DNA of 64,000 bases, from positions 1,671,684 to 1,735,683 of the forward strand of contig NZ_KQ758903.1 in NCBI RefSeq assembly GCF_001466665.1, written 5' to 3'. Positions 334 to 4,738 of the stretch are shown here, one piece after another (the first letter of the stretch is position 1; the number at the start of each line of letters is the position of its first letter). The stretch is from Dehalogenimonas alkenigignens (GTDB lineage Bacteria > Chloroflexota > Dehalococcoidia > Dehalococcoidales > Dehalococcoidaceae). The notes under the pieces were generated by a model that did no database searches, had not been told where the DNA came from, and saw only the letters and a program-made list of their open reading frames with translations. A program made the translations under genes and the position numbers.

Positions 334-1605
334 TTAGTGCACCGAACAGGAGATACAGGGGTCGTATGCACGCACCAGCATTTCCAGGGTGTGCCTGATT
401 TCATCCACCGGCTTGTCCAGGATGGCCGGGGCTAAAGCGTCGAAATCATGCTGGATAGAGGCGTGGTTCTGGCCGGTAGGGATGATGCAGTTAGCCGAGA
501 CAATCTCACCGGCATCGTTATAAGTGTAGTCATGGATGAGCATGCCGCGCGGCGCTTCGACGATACCCACGCCGCGGCCGGCGCGAGGCTTTACCTTGAC
601 CTCTTCATCATGCAGACCCCGTGCCAGCAGCCTGTCGATGATGTTGATGGCATCTTCAACGCAGTGAACCGTTTCCACCGCCTGGGCAACAGAGATGAAG
701 AAGGGATTGTGGATGGGGGCTTTCATGCCCAGGGAAGCAGCCGCTTTTTTGGCGCGAGGCAGCAGTTGTTCCGAACTCAGGTTGAAGCGAGCCAGCGCGC
801 CGACCTGATATGACGCCCGCGCATGCCTGGTATATTTAGCCGAGGACTGAGGCACGCAGAACTCGTTGGTGATCTTCTGGTAGTCCTCCAGCGGAAAGGT
901 GCCGCCGTCGGAGGAGGCGATCTTGCCGGTGATAAAAGCGTACTCCTTGGAATCCTTGAGCGCTACGTATTCGGTGGGACGGTTGAAGTTGGGGATCATC
1001 GGGGCGAGCGATTTAACGACGGCCACCATGGTTTCGGCGTCGTCCAGGCACTTGACCAGTCTCTCGCGGACATCACGCAGGGCGTCGGCGTCGGGAAGCT
1101 TGCTCCAGCCGCCGACAATGGGAGTGATGGGGTGGGTCTTCCGGCCGGCCAGTATCTCGGCCAGGTTATAGGCCAGCTTTTTCATCCTGACGGCCATGAC
1201 GATAACATCACCGTGGGTCGCGACAAGCGGGATGACCGAGTCTGCGCCAAGGAAATCCGGGGCGATAAGGAAAAGCACGTGCAGAACATGACTCTCGAGC
1301 AGTTCGGCATCGTAAAGCAGCTTCCTGAGGAGCCAGGCTTGCTCCGTCAGTTTGATACCAAAGGCGGCTTCGGTAGCCTGGAGCGACGCGGTAGTATGGG
1401 CGATTGAGCAGATGCCGCAAATACGCGATGAGATGGTGGAGACGTCGTCATAGTTGCGGCCCTTAAGCATCCATTCAAAGAAGCGGGGGGATTCGGTAAC
1501 TTCCCAGAGGACCTTTTCAAGCTTGCCGTCTGAAGCCTCCAGGTGGATGTTGCCGTGTCCCTCGACGCGAGTAAGCTGGTTGACCTTGATCTTTATTTCT
1601 GGCAC
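334..1605 (-). CDS. hydA: Cytoplasmic NiFe hydrogenase (group 3b-like) large subunit
   Basis: This is the catalytic subunit that binds the NiFe(CN)2CO centre and interconverts H2 with protons and electrons. Length is 423 aa. The N-terminal Ni ligand motif RICGICSIAH (Cys63, Cys66) and the C-terminal motif DPCISCSVH (Cys417, Cys420) are both intact. The protein stops exactly at the His of the C-terminal motif, so the peptide that a maturation endopeptidase normally removes is absent. The start overlaps the small-subunit gene by 13 bp. Gene order (beta/gamma fusion, delta, alpha) resembles sulfhydrogenase/NAD(P)-linked group 3b operons; the exact subgroup is inferred. There is no Tat signal, consistent with a cytoplasmic enzyme. 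Confidence 0.93.
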   Translation of the reverse strand: MPEIKIKVNQLTRVEGHGNIHLEASDGKLEKVLWEVTESPRFFEWMLKGRNYDDVSTISSRICGICSIAHTTASLQATEAAFGIKLTEQAWLLRKLLYDAELLESHVLHVLFLIAPDFLGADSVIPLVATHGDVIVMAVRMKKLAYNLAEILAGRKTHPITPIVGGWSKLPDADALRDVRERLVKCLDDAETMVAVVKSLAPMIPNFNRPTEYVALKDSKEYAFITGKIASSDGGTFPLEDYQKITNEFCVPQSSAKYTRHARASYQVGALARFNLSSEQLLPRAKKAAASLGMKAPIHNPFFISVAQAVETVHCVEDAINIIDRLLARGLHDEEVKVKPRAGRGVGIVEAPRGMLIHDYTYNDAGEIVSANCIIPTGQNHASIQHDFDALAPAILDKPVDEIRHTLEMLVRAYDPCISCSVH

Positions 1606-2342
1606 TGCGATACCTCCGAATAGGAGTTGTAGATTTTAAAGCGCTCGAGAATCTGGTCAAGCGTCAGACCGTAGCGGGCAAGGACGTCCTTGGCCGAGTT
1701 AGTGTTGGGGTCATCTACCAGACCGCGACAGCCCCAGCAGAAGCGTCCGGATGATACGCACAGGGCGTCACAGCCGGCGCGGGTTACCGGGCCGATGCAG
1801 GTGCCCCCCCGCTGAAAGACGCAGACGTTACCGGCGATGCGGCACTCGGTGCAGACGGGGTAATTGGGAATATCCGGCCGTTTGCCTAAAAGGGCTGCTT
1901 TGACCACTTTGAGAAATTCTGAAGTCGTCGGGGGGCAGCCGCGAATATAGGCGTCCACCGGTACGACGGCGCTGACCGGCCGGGCTGGAATGGTGTTGTA
2001 ATATGAAGCACATTCACCGTAAACGCCCTTTAACAATTCGTCAGCAGTATAGGCGTTCTTCAAGCAGTTGACGCCGCCGGTACAGGCGCAGGCGCCCAGG
2101 GCGACGAGAACCTTGGCCTGCTTGCGGATGGCCTCGATCCGGGGTATTTCCGACTCCTTGGTGATGGAACCCTCGATAAAGGCGATGTCGTAGTCATCCG
2201 ACCGGTCAGTCTTGACCTCGCGGAAGTTGACGATGTCCACCGCGCCGAGGAGCCCCAGCACCTCGCCGACATCCAAGTTTAAAGCGTCAAGCTGGCAGCC
2301 TTCGCAGGAGGTGAAGTCAAAAAAGGCGACTTTAGGTTTCAT
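1593..2342 (-). CDS. hydD: NiFe hydrogenase small subunit (20-kDa NADH:ubiquinone oxidoreductase family)
   Basis: This 249-aa protein carries Fe-S clusters that pass electrons between the NiFe site and the flavin subunit. The proximal-cluster motif CEGCQLD (Cys13, Cys16) is near the N-terminus. Further conserved Cys occur in GACACTGG and RGCPPT, and a Cys-rich C-terminal half (CTECR, GCDALC, CWGCRG) suits additional clusters. No Tat signal is present, unlike the periplasmic HupS at 46 kb. The gene starts immediately after the stop of the upstream fusion gene (2343) and overlaps hydA by 13 bp, so the three genes are probably translationally coupled. Confidence 0.92.
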   Translation of the reverse strand: MKPKVAFFDFTSCEGCQLDALNLDVGEVLGLLGAVDIVNFREVKTDRSDDYDIAFIEGSITKESEIPRIEAIRKQAKVLVALGACACTGGVNCLKNAYTADELLKGVYGECASYYNTIPARPVSAVVPVDAYIRGCPPTTSEFLKVVKAALLGKRPDIPNYPVCTECRIAGNVCVFQRGGTCIGPVTRAGCDALCVSSGRFCWGCRGLVDDPNTNSAKDVLARYGLTLDQILERFKIYNSYSEVSQCQK

Positions 2343-4661
2343 TTAGATAGCCTCCCTTAGAGTCCGCAGCCGGGTCAGGTTGAATACCGGACCCTCCTGG
2401 CAGACGTATACACCATTGATCTGGCAATTGCCGCACTTGCCGACGCCGCACTTCATCTTGCGCTCCAGGGAAACGATGATGTTGTCGTCGGCCAGGTCGC
2501 GTTTTTTAAGCTCGTTGATGACAAAGCGGTACATGATCGGCGGGCCGACCACCACAGTGACCGTTTTCTTCGGGTCGAACTGAACCTTGGGGATTAGGGT
2601 GGTGATGACGCCGACATTGCCTGTCCAGCTTTCATCGCCTTTGTCAACAGTCTCCATAAAGGTCACATCCGGCGCTTTCGACCATTCCGCCATCTCGCCG
2701 GCAAAGACGCGCTCCGCCGGCGACCGGGCGCCGAAAAGGAGATTGATCTTGCCGTAGTTCTCACGTTTGTCCAGGACATATTGAATGAGCGATCGCAGCG
2801 GGAAGATGCCGATGCCCCCAGCGATGAAGAGCAGGTCTTTTCCTTCCATCTGCTCCAGGGGGAAGCCGTTGCCGAATGGCCCCCGGATGCCGACGGGGGC
2901 GCCGGCTTCCATGCGGTGCAGAGCACCGGTAACGTTGCCGACGTTGCGCACAGCGACTTCGAAGGTGTGGTCCCGGGTAGGGGATGAGGTCAGCGAGATG
3001 GGCGACTCGCCGATGCCAAAGACGTACACTTCAACGAACTGCCCGGGCCGGTGGCCCAGCTTGTGACCGTCTTTTAGCCTGAATTCAAATAAAGTTTCGC
3101 GACTGGAAAGAGGAGTTGTCTTTACGATACTGGCCAGGTGCGGAAGATAAAGTTCCGGCTGCGGCCGGGTATTGGTGATGGTGCGCCGGGCTTTTTCCCG
3201 TGCCGTTTCCGAGGCGGCAATGGCATTGTAGGCCTCCAGGGGCGAGGCGATCTCAGCCAGGCAGGTGACAGAACAGCGGCCGCAGCCGACACAGCCGAAT
3301 TTCCCGTAGCGGTCCAGGATATATTTACCTTTATGGTACATCCGGTGGCGGAACCGGGAAACTTTATCGCCGCGGAAGTTGGCGCCGGCGGCCACCCGGG
3401 AAAAATCCACCAGCATGCAGCCGTCCGGCTTTCTGATCCTTTCGCCGTCTGTCAAATTGAGGGAGACATCGTCCTGGACATCAAAACAAAAGCAGGTTGG
3501 GCAGACCATAATGCAGGAACCGCAGTTGAGGCAGGTCTCCGACCGCATCTTCCAGTAAGGATTGTCGTAATTGTTTTCCAGGAGGTTGGGTATCTTGTCC
3601 CGGGACATATCTAAAAAGAGGCGGTATTTAGACAGCGCCTCATCTCTGACCTGTTTCTGACGGGCGGTCTCGGCGACGGTCGGTTCGCGTACTTGAGCAT
3701 ATTTAGCCAGCACCTGAGCGCCGGCCTCTGATCCCACGGTCACCATATACGAAGAGTTGCCGATATCAGTCAGCAGCAGGTCGTAGCCGCTTTCCGCGGT
3801 ATAAGAACCCATGCTGGGGGCGAACGAAGACGGCAGGGGAGTCAGCACATCCACACCGATAATCAGCGTGTTCTGGCGGCGCGCCGCATAATTGGGATCA
3901 GGATTGCCGGTCATGAAAACTTCATCGAGGAGGTTGATAGCGTTGATATCATCCGGGTGGACGCCGATAAGGACGCGGGGTGTGGTGTCTGTCACCGGGG
4001 TGATTTCCGGAGTGGGACCAAGCTTGTAGCGCAGGATTGTCTCGCAGGCGGGGATGAAGAAAGCGGTGGGCGGGTTGACGGTGACGTCGTAATCCAGCGC
4101 CAGGTCATCGAAATTCTTGACCTTATCGTAAACAAATTTACCCTGCCTGGCCCTGACACCGATGGCTTCTCTCTCTTTAATAAGGCTATTGACTAAATTC
4201 TTGAGACTGTCGCGGGAAATGACGAAAGTGGCCTGGTAGGAAATCCTGGCAGGAGTCTGTTTGGCTTTAATTTGGACGTGAACCGTTTTCTGCTTGCTGG
4301 CTGACTTGATGGTGTCTTTTACCAGTTTTTCCAGGTCCTGGGGCGAAAAAGGCTTCACCAGGTAGTCCACCGCGCCCTGCTTCAGCGCTTCAGTGGCTGA
4401 TTCGACAGACGGGTGGTCGGTGGTAACTATCGCCTGGAGCCAGGGACGCTTCACCTTGACTTCCCGCAGCACGCCCAGTCCGTGTTTACCGGGCAGTCGC
4501 ATATCCAGCAGCATGACGCTGAAGTCCTGGTTGTCAATCAGCGACAGCGCTTCCTCGCCGGTGGCGGCGGTGGCAACCTTGAAACCCGCGCCCTTGAGCC
4601 AGGCGGCGGTTTCGCGGGACGCGGGATCGGAGTCAACGATGAGTACTGAGTTTTCCGGCAT
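2343..4661 (-). CDS. Response-regulator receiver domain fused to hydrogenase beta (4Fe-4S) and gamma (FAD/NAD(P)) subunits
   Basis: This 772-aa protein joins three modules usually encoded separately. Residues about 5-115 form a receiver domain with the acidic pair Asp10/Asp12, phosphoacceptor Asp53 (LLDMRLPG), Thr80 and Lys103 all in place. Residues about 125-480 resemble the hydrogenase beta subunit, with 4Fe-4S motifs at Cys377/380/383/387 and Cys457/460/463/467. Residues about 505-772 form a ferredoxin-reductase-like module with FAD-binding RPGQFVEV, nucleotide-binding AGGIGIFPL (613-621) and a C-terminal 2Fe-2S set at Cys738/743/746/754. It would link H2 oxidation to NAD(P). The start has a strong GGGGGAG site. 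No histidine kinase is adjacent. A read-through artefact is unlikely because one uninterrupted frame spans all modules. Confidence 0.9.
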   Translation of the reverse strand: MPENSVLIVDSDPASRETAAWLKGAGFKVATAATGEEALSLIDNQDFSVMLLDMRLPGKHGLGVLREVKVKRPWLQAIVTTDHPSVESATEALKQGAVDYLVKPFSPQDLEKLVKDTIKSASKQKTVHVQIKAKQTPARISYQATFVISRDSLKNLVNSLIKEREAIGVRARQGKFVYDKVKNFDDLALDYDVTVNPPTAFFIPACETILRYKLGPTPEITPVTDTTPRVLIGVHPDDINAINLLDEVFMTGNPDPNYAARRQNTLIIGVDVLTPLPSSFAPSMGSYTAESGYDLLLTDIGNSSYMVTVGSEAGAQVLAKYAQVREPTVAETARQKQVRDEALSKYRLFLDMSRDKIPNLLENNYDNPYWKMRSETCLNCGSCIMVCPTCFCFDVQDDVSLNLTDGERIRKPDGCMLVDFSRVAAGANFRGDKVSRFRHRMYHKGKYILDRYGKFGCVGCGRCSVTCLAEIASPLEAYNAIAASETAREKARRTITNTRPQPELYLPHLASIVKTTPLSSRETLFEFRLKDGHKLGHRPGQFVEVYVFGIGESPISLTSSPTRDHTFEVAVRNVGNVTGALHRMEAGAPVGIRGPFGNGFPLEQMEGKDLLFIAGGIGIFPLRSLIQYVLDKRENYGKINLLFGARSPAERVFAGEMAEWSKAPDVTFMETVDKGDESWTGNVGVITTLIPKVQFDPKKTVTVVVGPPIMYRFVINELKKRDLADDNIIVSLERKMKCGVGKCGNCQINGVYVCQEGPVFNLTRLRTLREAI

Positions 4662-4738
4662 GAACTCCCCCCTTTATGGCGGATTATCCGGCGAGGCCGC
4701 CGGTACTATTTTGAGACTAACAATAAAAAGGCGAGATG

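Follow-up and report, generated by a model that had tools for sequence, protein, structure and literature searches.

Can a receiver domain of a two-component system control a hydrogenase from within the same polypeptide? The control of hydrogenases has mostly been described at the transcriptional level. An earlier note on the window analyzed here, a 64,000-nucleotide stretch of the Dehalogenimonas alkenigignens genome, had claimed that a single frame joins a complete response-regulator receiver to hydrogenase beta and gamma modules, and that phosphorylation of this receiver could gate electron flow between H2 and NAD(P). The gene (positions 2343 to 4661) lies on the minus strand, as do the other features of the window described below, and runs uninterrupted from an ATG at 4661 to a stop codon at 2343, encoding a REC-HydB-HydG fusion protein of 772 amino acids (aa). 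An RBS-like GGGGGGAG (AGGGGGGAG-type), read from the sequence, is located at positions 4666 to 4673, just upstream of the ATG.

The N-terminal receiver (or pseudo-receiver, see below) covers residues 1 to 118 (positions 4308 to 4661), matches Pfam Response_reg at residues 6 to 114 (E value, 9e-24), and adopts a (beta-alpha)5 fold in the AlphaFold model, mostly at a pLDDT of 83 to 95. It is followed by a variable linker at residues 119 to 147 (positions 4221 to 4307), of which residues 124 to 136 are disordered in the model (pLDDT <50). The HydB-like Fe-S module at residues 148 to 480 (positions 3222 to 4220) includes a Fer4_22 4Fe-4S dicluster match (residues 376 to 471; E value, 5e-30), and the HydG-like FAD/NAD(P)/2Fe-2S module at residues 501 to 772 (positions 2346 to 3161) matches FAD_binding_6 (residues 512 to 598), NAD_binding_1 (residues 612 to 714), and DHODB_Fe-S_bind (residues 733 to 765). 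Both modules were recognized by Pfam, NCBIfam, and PDB sequence and fold matches and were folded confidently in the model. The best PDB sequence matches were the gamma (8.5e-59) and beta (4e-41) subunits of Pyrococcus furiosus sulfhydrogenase 1, which were also the best fold matches, with TM scores of 0.86 to 0.90 on the target. The frame, the Pfam assignments, and the PDB and fold matches thus confirm the claimed fusion. The pTM of the model is 0.52, so the relative placement of the domains is uninformative and yields no trustworthy docking geometry.

The ATG of a HydD-like small [NiFe] hydrogenase subunit gene (positions 1593 to 2342) follows immediately after the fusion stop codon, and a HydA-like large [NiFe] subunit gene (positions 334 to 1605) overlaps hydD by 13 bases. 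HydA carries both Ni-ligand Cys pairs (RICGIC and DPCISC), as read from the sequence. The Fe-S beta, FAD/NAD(P) gamma, small delta, and large alpha modules are therefore found together in a complete operon, which is classed by sequence as a group 3b-like [NiFe] hydrogenase of the sulfhydrogenase type. All four parts missed the NCBIfam equivalog cutoffs for HydA/B/G/D and ShyA/B/C/D with far lower scores (for example, 207.8 bits versus a cutoff of 650 for HydG and 203.9 versus 690 for ShyB) and are classed as homologs rather than equivalogs of these proteins. The four modules, their gene order, and the Ni-ligand motifs are shared with the P. furiosus soluble hydrogenase/sulfhydrogenase 1 (HydBGDA; PDB 9nez and 9nf0), at 27% to 38% identity across the fold matches, whereas in Dehalogenimonas HydB and HydG form one polypeptide with an N-terminal receiver. 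With its NAD-binding and FAD folds, the HydG-like module may link H2 oxidation or production to NAD(P). Three hydrogenase types are described in PMC13390414 as common to all Dehalogenimonas genomes; one of these, a "coenzyme F420-reducing hydrogenase homolog," is probably the operon at positions 334 to 4661, and the account of this homolog seen in that paper does not mention a receiver domain. The host genome is a single contig of 1.85 Mb with about 30 reductive-dehalogenase matches.

As a separate observation, the Dehalogenimonas HydA (positions 334 to 1605 of the window; loci L031, L060 to L063, and L165) stops exactly at DPCISCSVH and lacks the approximately 7-residue C-terminal tail of most relatives, a tail normally cleaved by a maturation protease. 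A protease-like gene lies inside the hydrogenase cluster of genomes G050, G187, and G099, and none was seen in the operon of the window.

The fusion was found in all eight genomes of the genus searched, at 85% to 100% identity, and in 11 other Dehalococcoidia genomes at 57% to 64% identity, one copy being truncated at a contig end. This conservation of a receiver and an enzyme in one polypeptide across 19 genomes and several families, together with purifying selection, rules out an assembly artifact or a chance fusion. The fusion was absent from three genomes of the sister genus, presumably Dehalococcoides, and hydB and hydG are split in sister lineages within the class. On a HydB tree of 132 rows, the receiver-bearing copies formed a single clade (SH-aLRT, 100); its only members with a receiver-free HydB-HydG are the nested pair G054 and G024, where the rest of the operon is intact. 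Receiver presence required 2 changes on this tree versus 17.2 with shuffled labels, which fits one gain and one loss. No receiver joined to HydB was present among the 80 relatives listed from other lineages and phyla, where rarer fusions of this kind are possible. A search of viral contigs found no relative, and the relatives found on the plasmids searched were only about 35% identical and all without a receiver.

The receiver itself was examined with an active-site register set by alignment to CheY and the 18 fused orthologs, which places the conserved quintet at D10, S11, D53, T81, and K103. The earlier note had listed Asp10, Asp12, Asp53, Thr80, and Lys103 as a complete set; its Asp12 and Thr80 are neighbors of the true positions 11 and 81, and the five-residue site (DD, D, T/S, K) is incomplete in Dehalogenimonas, since the second acidic residue (DD2), the Mg-binding Asp of canonical receivers, is Ser11 (codon at 4629 to 4631). 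The phospho-acceptor position, Asp53 (codon at 4503 to 4505), is invariant in all 19 fused copies, so the loss of this residue in most orthologs was not seen. Lys103 (codon at 4353 to 4355) is kept in 18 of 19 copies (Arg in G187), as is the switch residue Thr81 (Ala in G297), which is followed by Asp82 at the T+1 position, normally Ala or Gly (codons at 4416 to 4421). Position 11 is Ser or Ala in 8/8 Dehalogenimonas copies (Ala in two genomes), Asp in 7/7 canonical-type copies, and Ser in the four copies of the G297 family, which have Glu at position 10. Among the 19 fused copies, T+1 is Asp only in Dehalogenimonas, where Asp12 and Asp82 are invariant. The full quintet is kept in 6/7 canonical-type genomes of other Dehalococcoidia.

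A pseudo-receiver is defined by Bourret et al. (PMC12632262) as a receiver missing at least one of the five conserved residues. The Dehalogenimonas domain, which matches PF00072 and has the receiver fold, is formally a pseudo-receiver by this definition and by its aligned residues. According to the same study, DD2 binds the metal directly and is non-acidic in about 80% of pseudo-receivers, and T+1 is generally small. Like the pseudo-receivers and atypical response regulators described there, the Dehalogenimonas domain lacks DD2, has a T+1 residue that is not small, and has no kinase nearby; unlike them, it keeps D, T, and K and is attached to an enzyme instead of a DNA-binding domain.

The active-site erosion could mean that the receiver is a passive fusion remnant or a solubility tag without a regulatory role, and its secondary loss in G054 and G024 from an otherwise intact operon points the same way. 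The pattern of selection argues against this reading. Among seven Dehalogenimonas sequences, pN/pS was 0.131 for the receiver, 0.126 for HydB, 0.107 for HydG, and 0.280 for the linker, values that are rough because synonymous sites are near saturation and that count as a comparison between domains. The receiver is thus under purifying selection as strong as that on HydB, the linker is twice as relaxed, and the receiver persists throughout the genus (8/8 genomes) and in several families. A passive remnant is the least probable of the readings considered here. Conservation within the receiver is uneven. Overall receiver identity is 86% within Dehalogenimonas versus 69% among canonical fused receivers, whereas identity at the helix alpha-1 face is 54% versus 95%. 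In alpha-1, where canonical copies read IVRESI, one residue is deleted before Trp21, while alpha-2, alpha-4, and beta-5 are 96% to 100% kept; the drop relative to canonical fused receivers lies chiefly in the acidic-pair loop and alpha-1. Since alpha-1 is the kinase-docking face and alpha-4-beta-5 part of the output face in typical response regulators, this pattern fits a loss of the kinase contact with retention of the output surface.

The relatives suggest where the domain came from. On a tree, the fused receivers group with stand-alone receivers (support, 98/92). The genes of the latter immediately precede the fusion gene in G056, G784, and G099; in G050, their neighbors are Mvh/Hdr-type genes. 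The gene order in G056 is histidine kinase (HisKA-HATPase), receiver, REC-HydB-HydG, HydD, and HydA, and the relatives mostly keep canonical receivers, several of them beside a kinase or twin receiver. No kinase gene adjoins the operon in the window or in the Dehalogenimonas neighborhoods examined.

The reading we favor, at a probability of roughly 0.55, is that the fused domain is a regulatory or docking domain derived from a hydrogenase-linked two-component system, ancestrally gated by phosphorylation and probably phosphorylation independent in Dehalogenimonas. The fusion would constitute the diaphorase arm, made up of the beta and gamma modules, in a soluble group 3b-like [NiFe] hydrogenase, and a two-component system whose genes formerly lay at this locus would have supplied its receiver. 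The ancestral receiver, canonical and probably phosphorylated by the locus-encoded kinase, may have changed its packing on HydB/HydG upon phosphorylation and so tuned H2/NAD(P) electron flow. The present Dehalogenimonas receiver has kept the phospho-Asp, Thr, Lys, and alpha-4-beta-5 face, and its metal-binding acidic residue, T+1, and kinase-docking helix have changed; tethered by the flexible linker, it may pack on the HydB/HydG arm and, most likely free of phosphorylation, dock, hold, or allosterically tune it. A counterpoint is that Asp53, Thr81, and Lys103 are all retained, although a domain with a purely structural role could do without them.

This counterpoint leads to the alternative that phosphorylation still gates the Dehalogenimonas enzyme, with a distant kinase or acetyl phosphate acting on Asp53. 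The near invariance of the three residues among the fused copies (19/19, 18/19, and 18/19) is in its favor; the genus-wide Asp12 or Asp82, or both, might rebuild the metal site in place of the missing ligand, and, with 19 HisKA matches elsewhere in the host genome, it is possible that a kinase encoded there acts on the receiver. The lost residue, however, is a direct metal ligand, at a position that is non-acidic in about 80% of pseudo-receivers (PMC12632262), an Asp at T+1 should crowd or repel the phosphodonor, alpha-1 has diverged, and the Dehalogenimonas loci examined hold no kinase, so that continued gating by this route is unlikely. The gating claimed by the earlier note is accordingly doubtful in Dehalogenimonas because of the incomplete quintet (DD2 Ser/Ala, 8/8), the T+1 Asp, the residue loss and variation in alpha-1, and the missing locus kinase, and it is plausible in other Dehalococcoidia, where 6/7 canonical-type copies have the full quintet and some lie alongside a kinase or twin receiver.

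A second Chloroflexota class was also scanned, in which 44 of 298 genomes have a hydrogenase of this kind. The genomes G906 and G1047, both from the same family, encode HydB C-terminal to a complete REC-HisKA-HATPase (L181:2582-4819 and L180:547-2793; 746 and 749 aa, 70% identical) that has the residues of the REC quintet and of the H-box (THELQ). In G906, the fusion gene comes after genes for a Cache-HAMP sensor kinase and a single stand-alone receiver, and in a third genome, G991, a shortened REC-HK gene overlaps a separate hydB. Given the REC-HydB-HydG and REC-HisKA-HATPase-HydB fusions, two-component parts have joined this hydrogenase type in at least two ways.

The kinase fusion raises the possibility of a signal running in reverse, in which the hydrogenase informs a two-component system of H2 or redox state and the receiver serves as a tethered phosphate sink or anti-kinase. 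An electron-transfer subunit behind a complete REC-HisKA-HATPase could drive the kinase, and FixT is a characterized kinase-inhibiting receiver (PMC7078487). For Dehalogenimonas this is quite improbable: its locus has no partner kinase, the helix that would dock one is the most variable part of the receiver, and the kinase-HydB fusion, whose HydB is of another lineage, may have its own mode of action. The phosphorylation-independent docking or regulatory domain stays the preferred reading for Dehalogenimonas. More broadly, at somewhat less than even odds, Chloroflexota group 3b-like hydrogenases are wired to two-component signaling at the protein level, through kinase-switched canonical fused receivers in several Dehalococcoidia lineages, through REC-HisKA-HATPase-HydB in another class, where the hydrogenase may feed the kinase, and through a phosphorylation-free derivative in Dehalogenimonas. 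Signaling appears to have been wired into the hydrogenase and later remodeled in this genus.

Response regulators with enzymatic outputs are known, such as REC-thioredoxin reductase and REC-pyruvate phosphate dikinase (PMC5847659). The Dehalogenimonas receiver is likewise joined to a metabolic enzyme, but its output is the electron-transfer arm of a multisubunit hydrogenase. No receiver-hydrogenase fusion and no description of the kinase-HydB fusion were found in the open-access literature searched; receiver-enzyme fusions and this hydrogenase type were known already, and their combination is new to that literature. If a receiver or kinase domain does tune H2/NAD(P) electron flow, it would represent posttranslational control of a hydrogenase by two-component signaling, in organisms whose H2 use matters for the clean-up of chlorinated pollutants. 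The series across relatives, from a canonical receiver beside a kinase through partly degenerate and pseudo-receiver forms to loss, also provides a natural test set for how pseudo-receivers work.

Other regulatory genes were observed around these hydrogenases. Histidine kinases and receivers are among the genes that a recent neighborhood survey records close to [NiFe] hydrogenases (PMC12727194). Among other-lineage contigs with enough flank, 10 of 50 carry a short stand-alone receiver and a histidine kinase 3.4 to 4.5 kb past hydB, in Chloroflexota (L102, L108, L131, L134, L137, L145, and L152), Aminicenantes (L121 and L126), and Spirochaetales (L142); Hdr-like genes come next in L137. In the G297 family, the operon comes after genes for an NtrC-type regulator and for a kinase containing an [FeFe]-hydrogenase-like domain. 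The 649-aa kinase protein (L055:5916-7865 in G297; L162:139-2088 in G836), which combines an [FeFe]-hydrogenase large-subunit domain with HisKA-HATPase upstream of the REC-hydrogenase operon, is possibly an H2-sensing kinase. As a partner of the Dehalogenimonas receiver it was rejected, since PF02906, which G297, G836, and G187 have, was found in 0/8 Dehalogenimonas genomes. In the split hydBGDA operon of G184, the gene immediately ahead of hydB encodes a small CBS-domain-like protein (L064:6710-7129), identified by eye. On the Paraburkholderia phytofirmans plasmid pOLGA1 (L169), a cyclic-nucleotide-binding-domain gene lies between the hydB-like and hydG-like genes, an arrangement suggestive of a further regulatory input to hydrogenases of this type.
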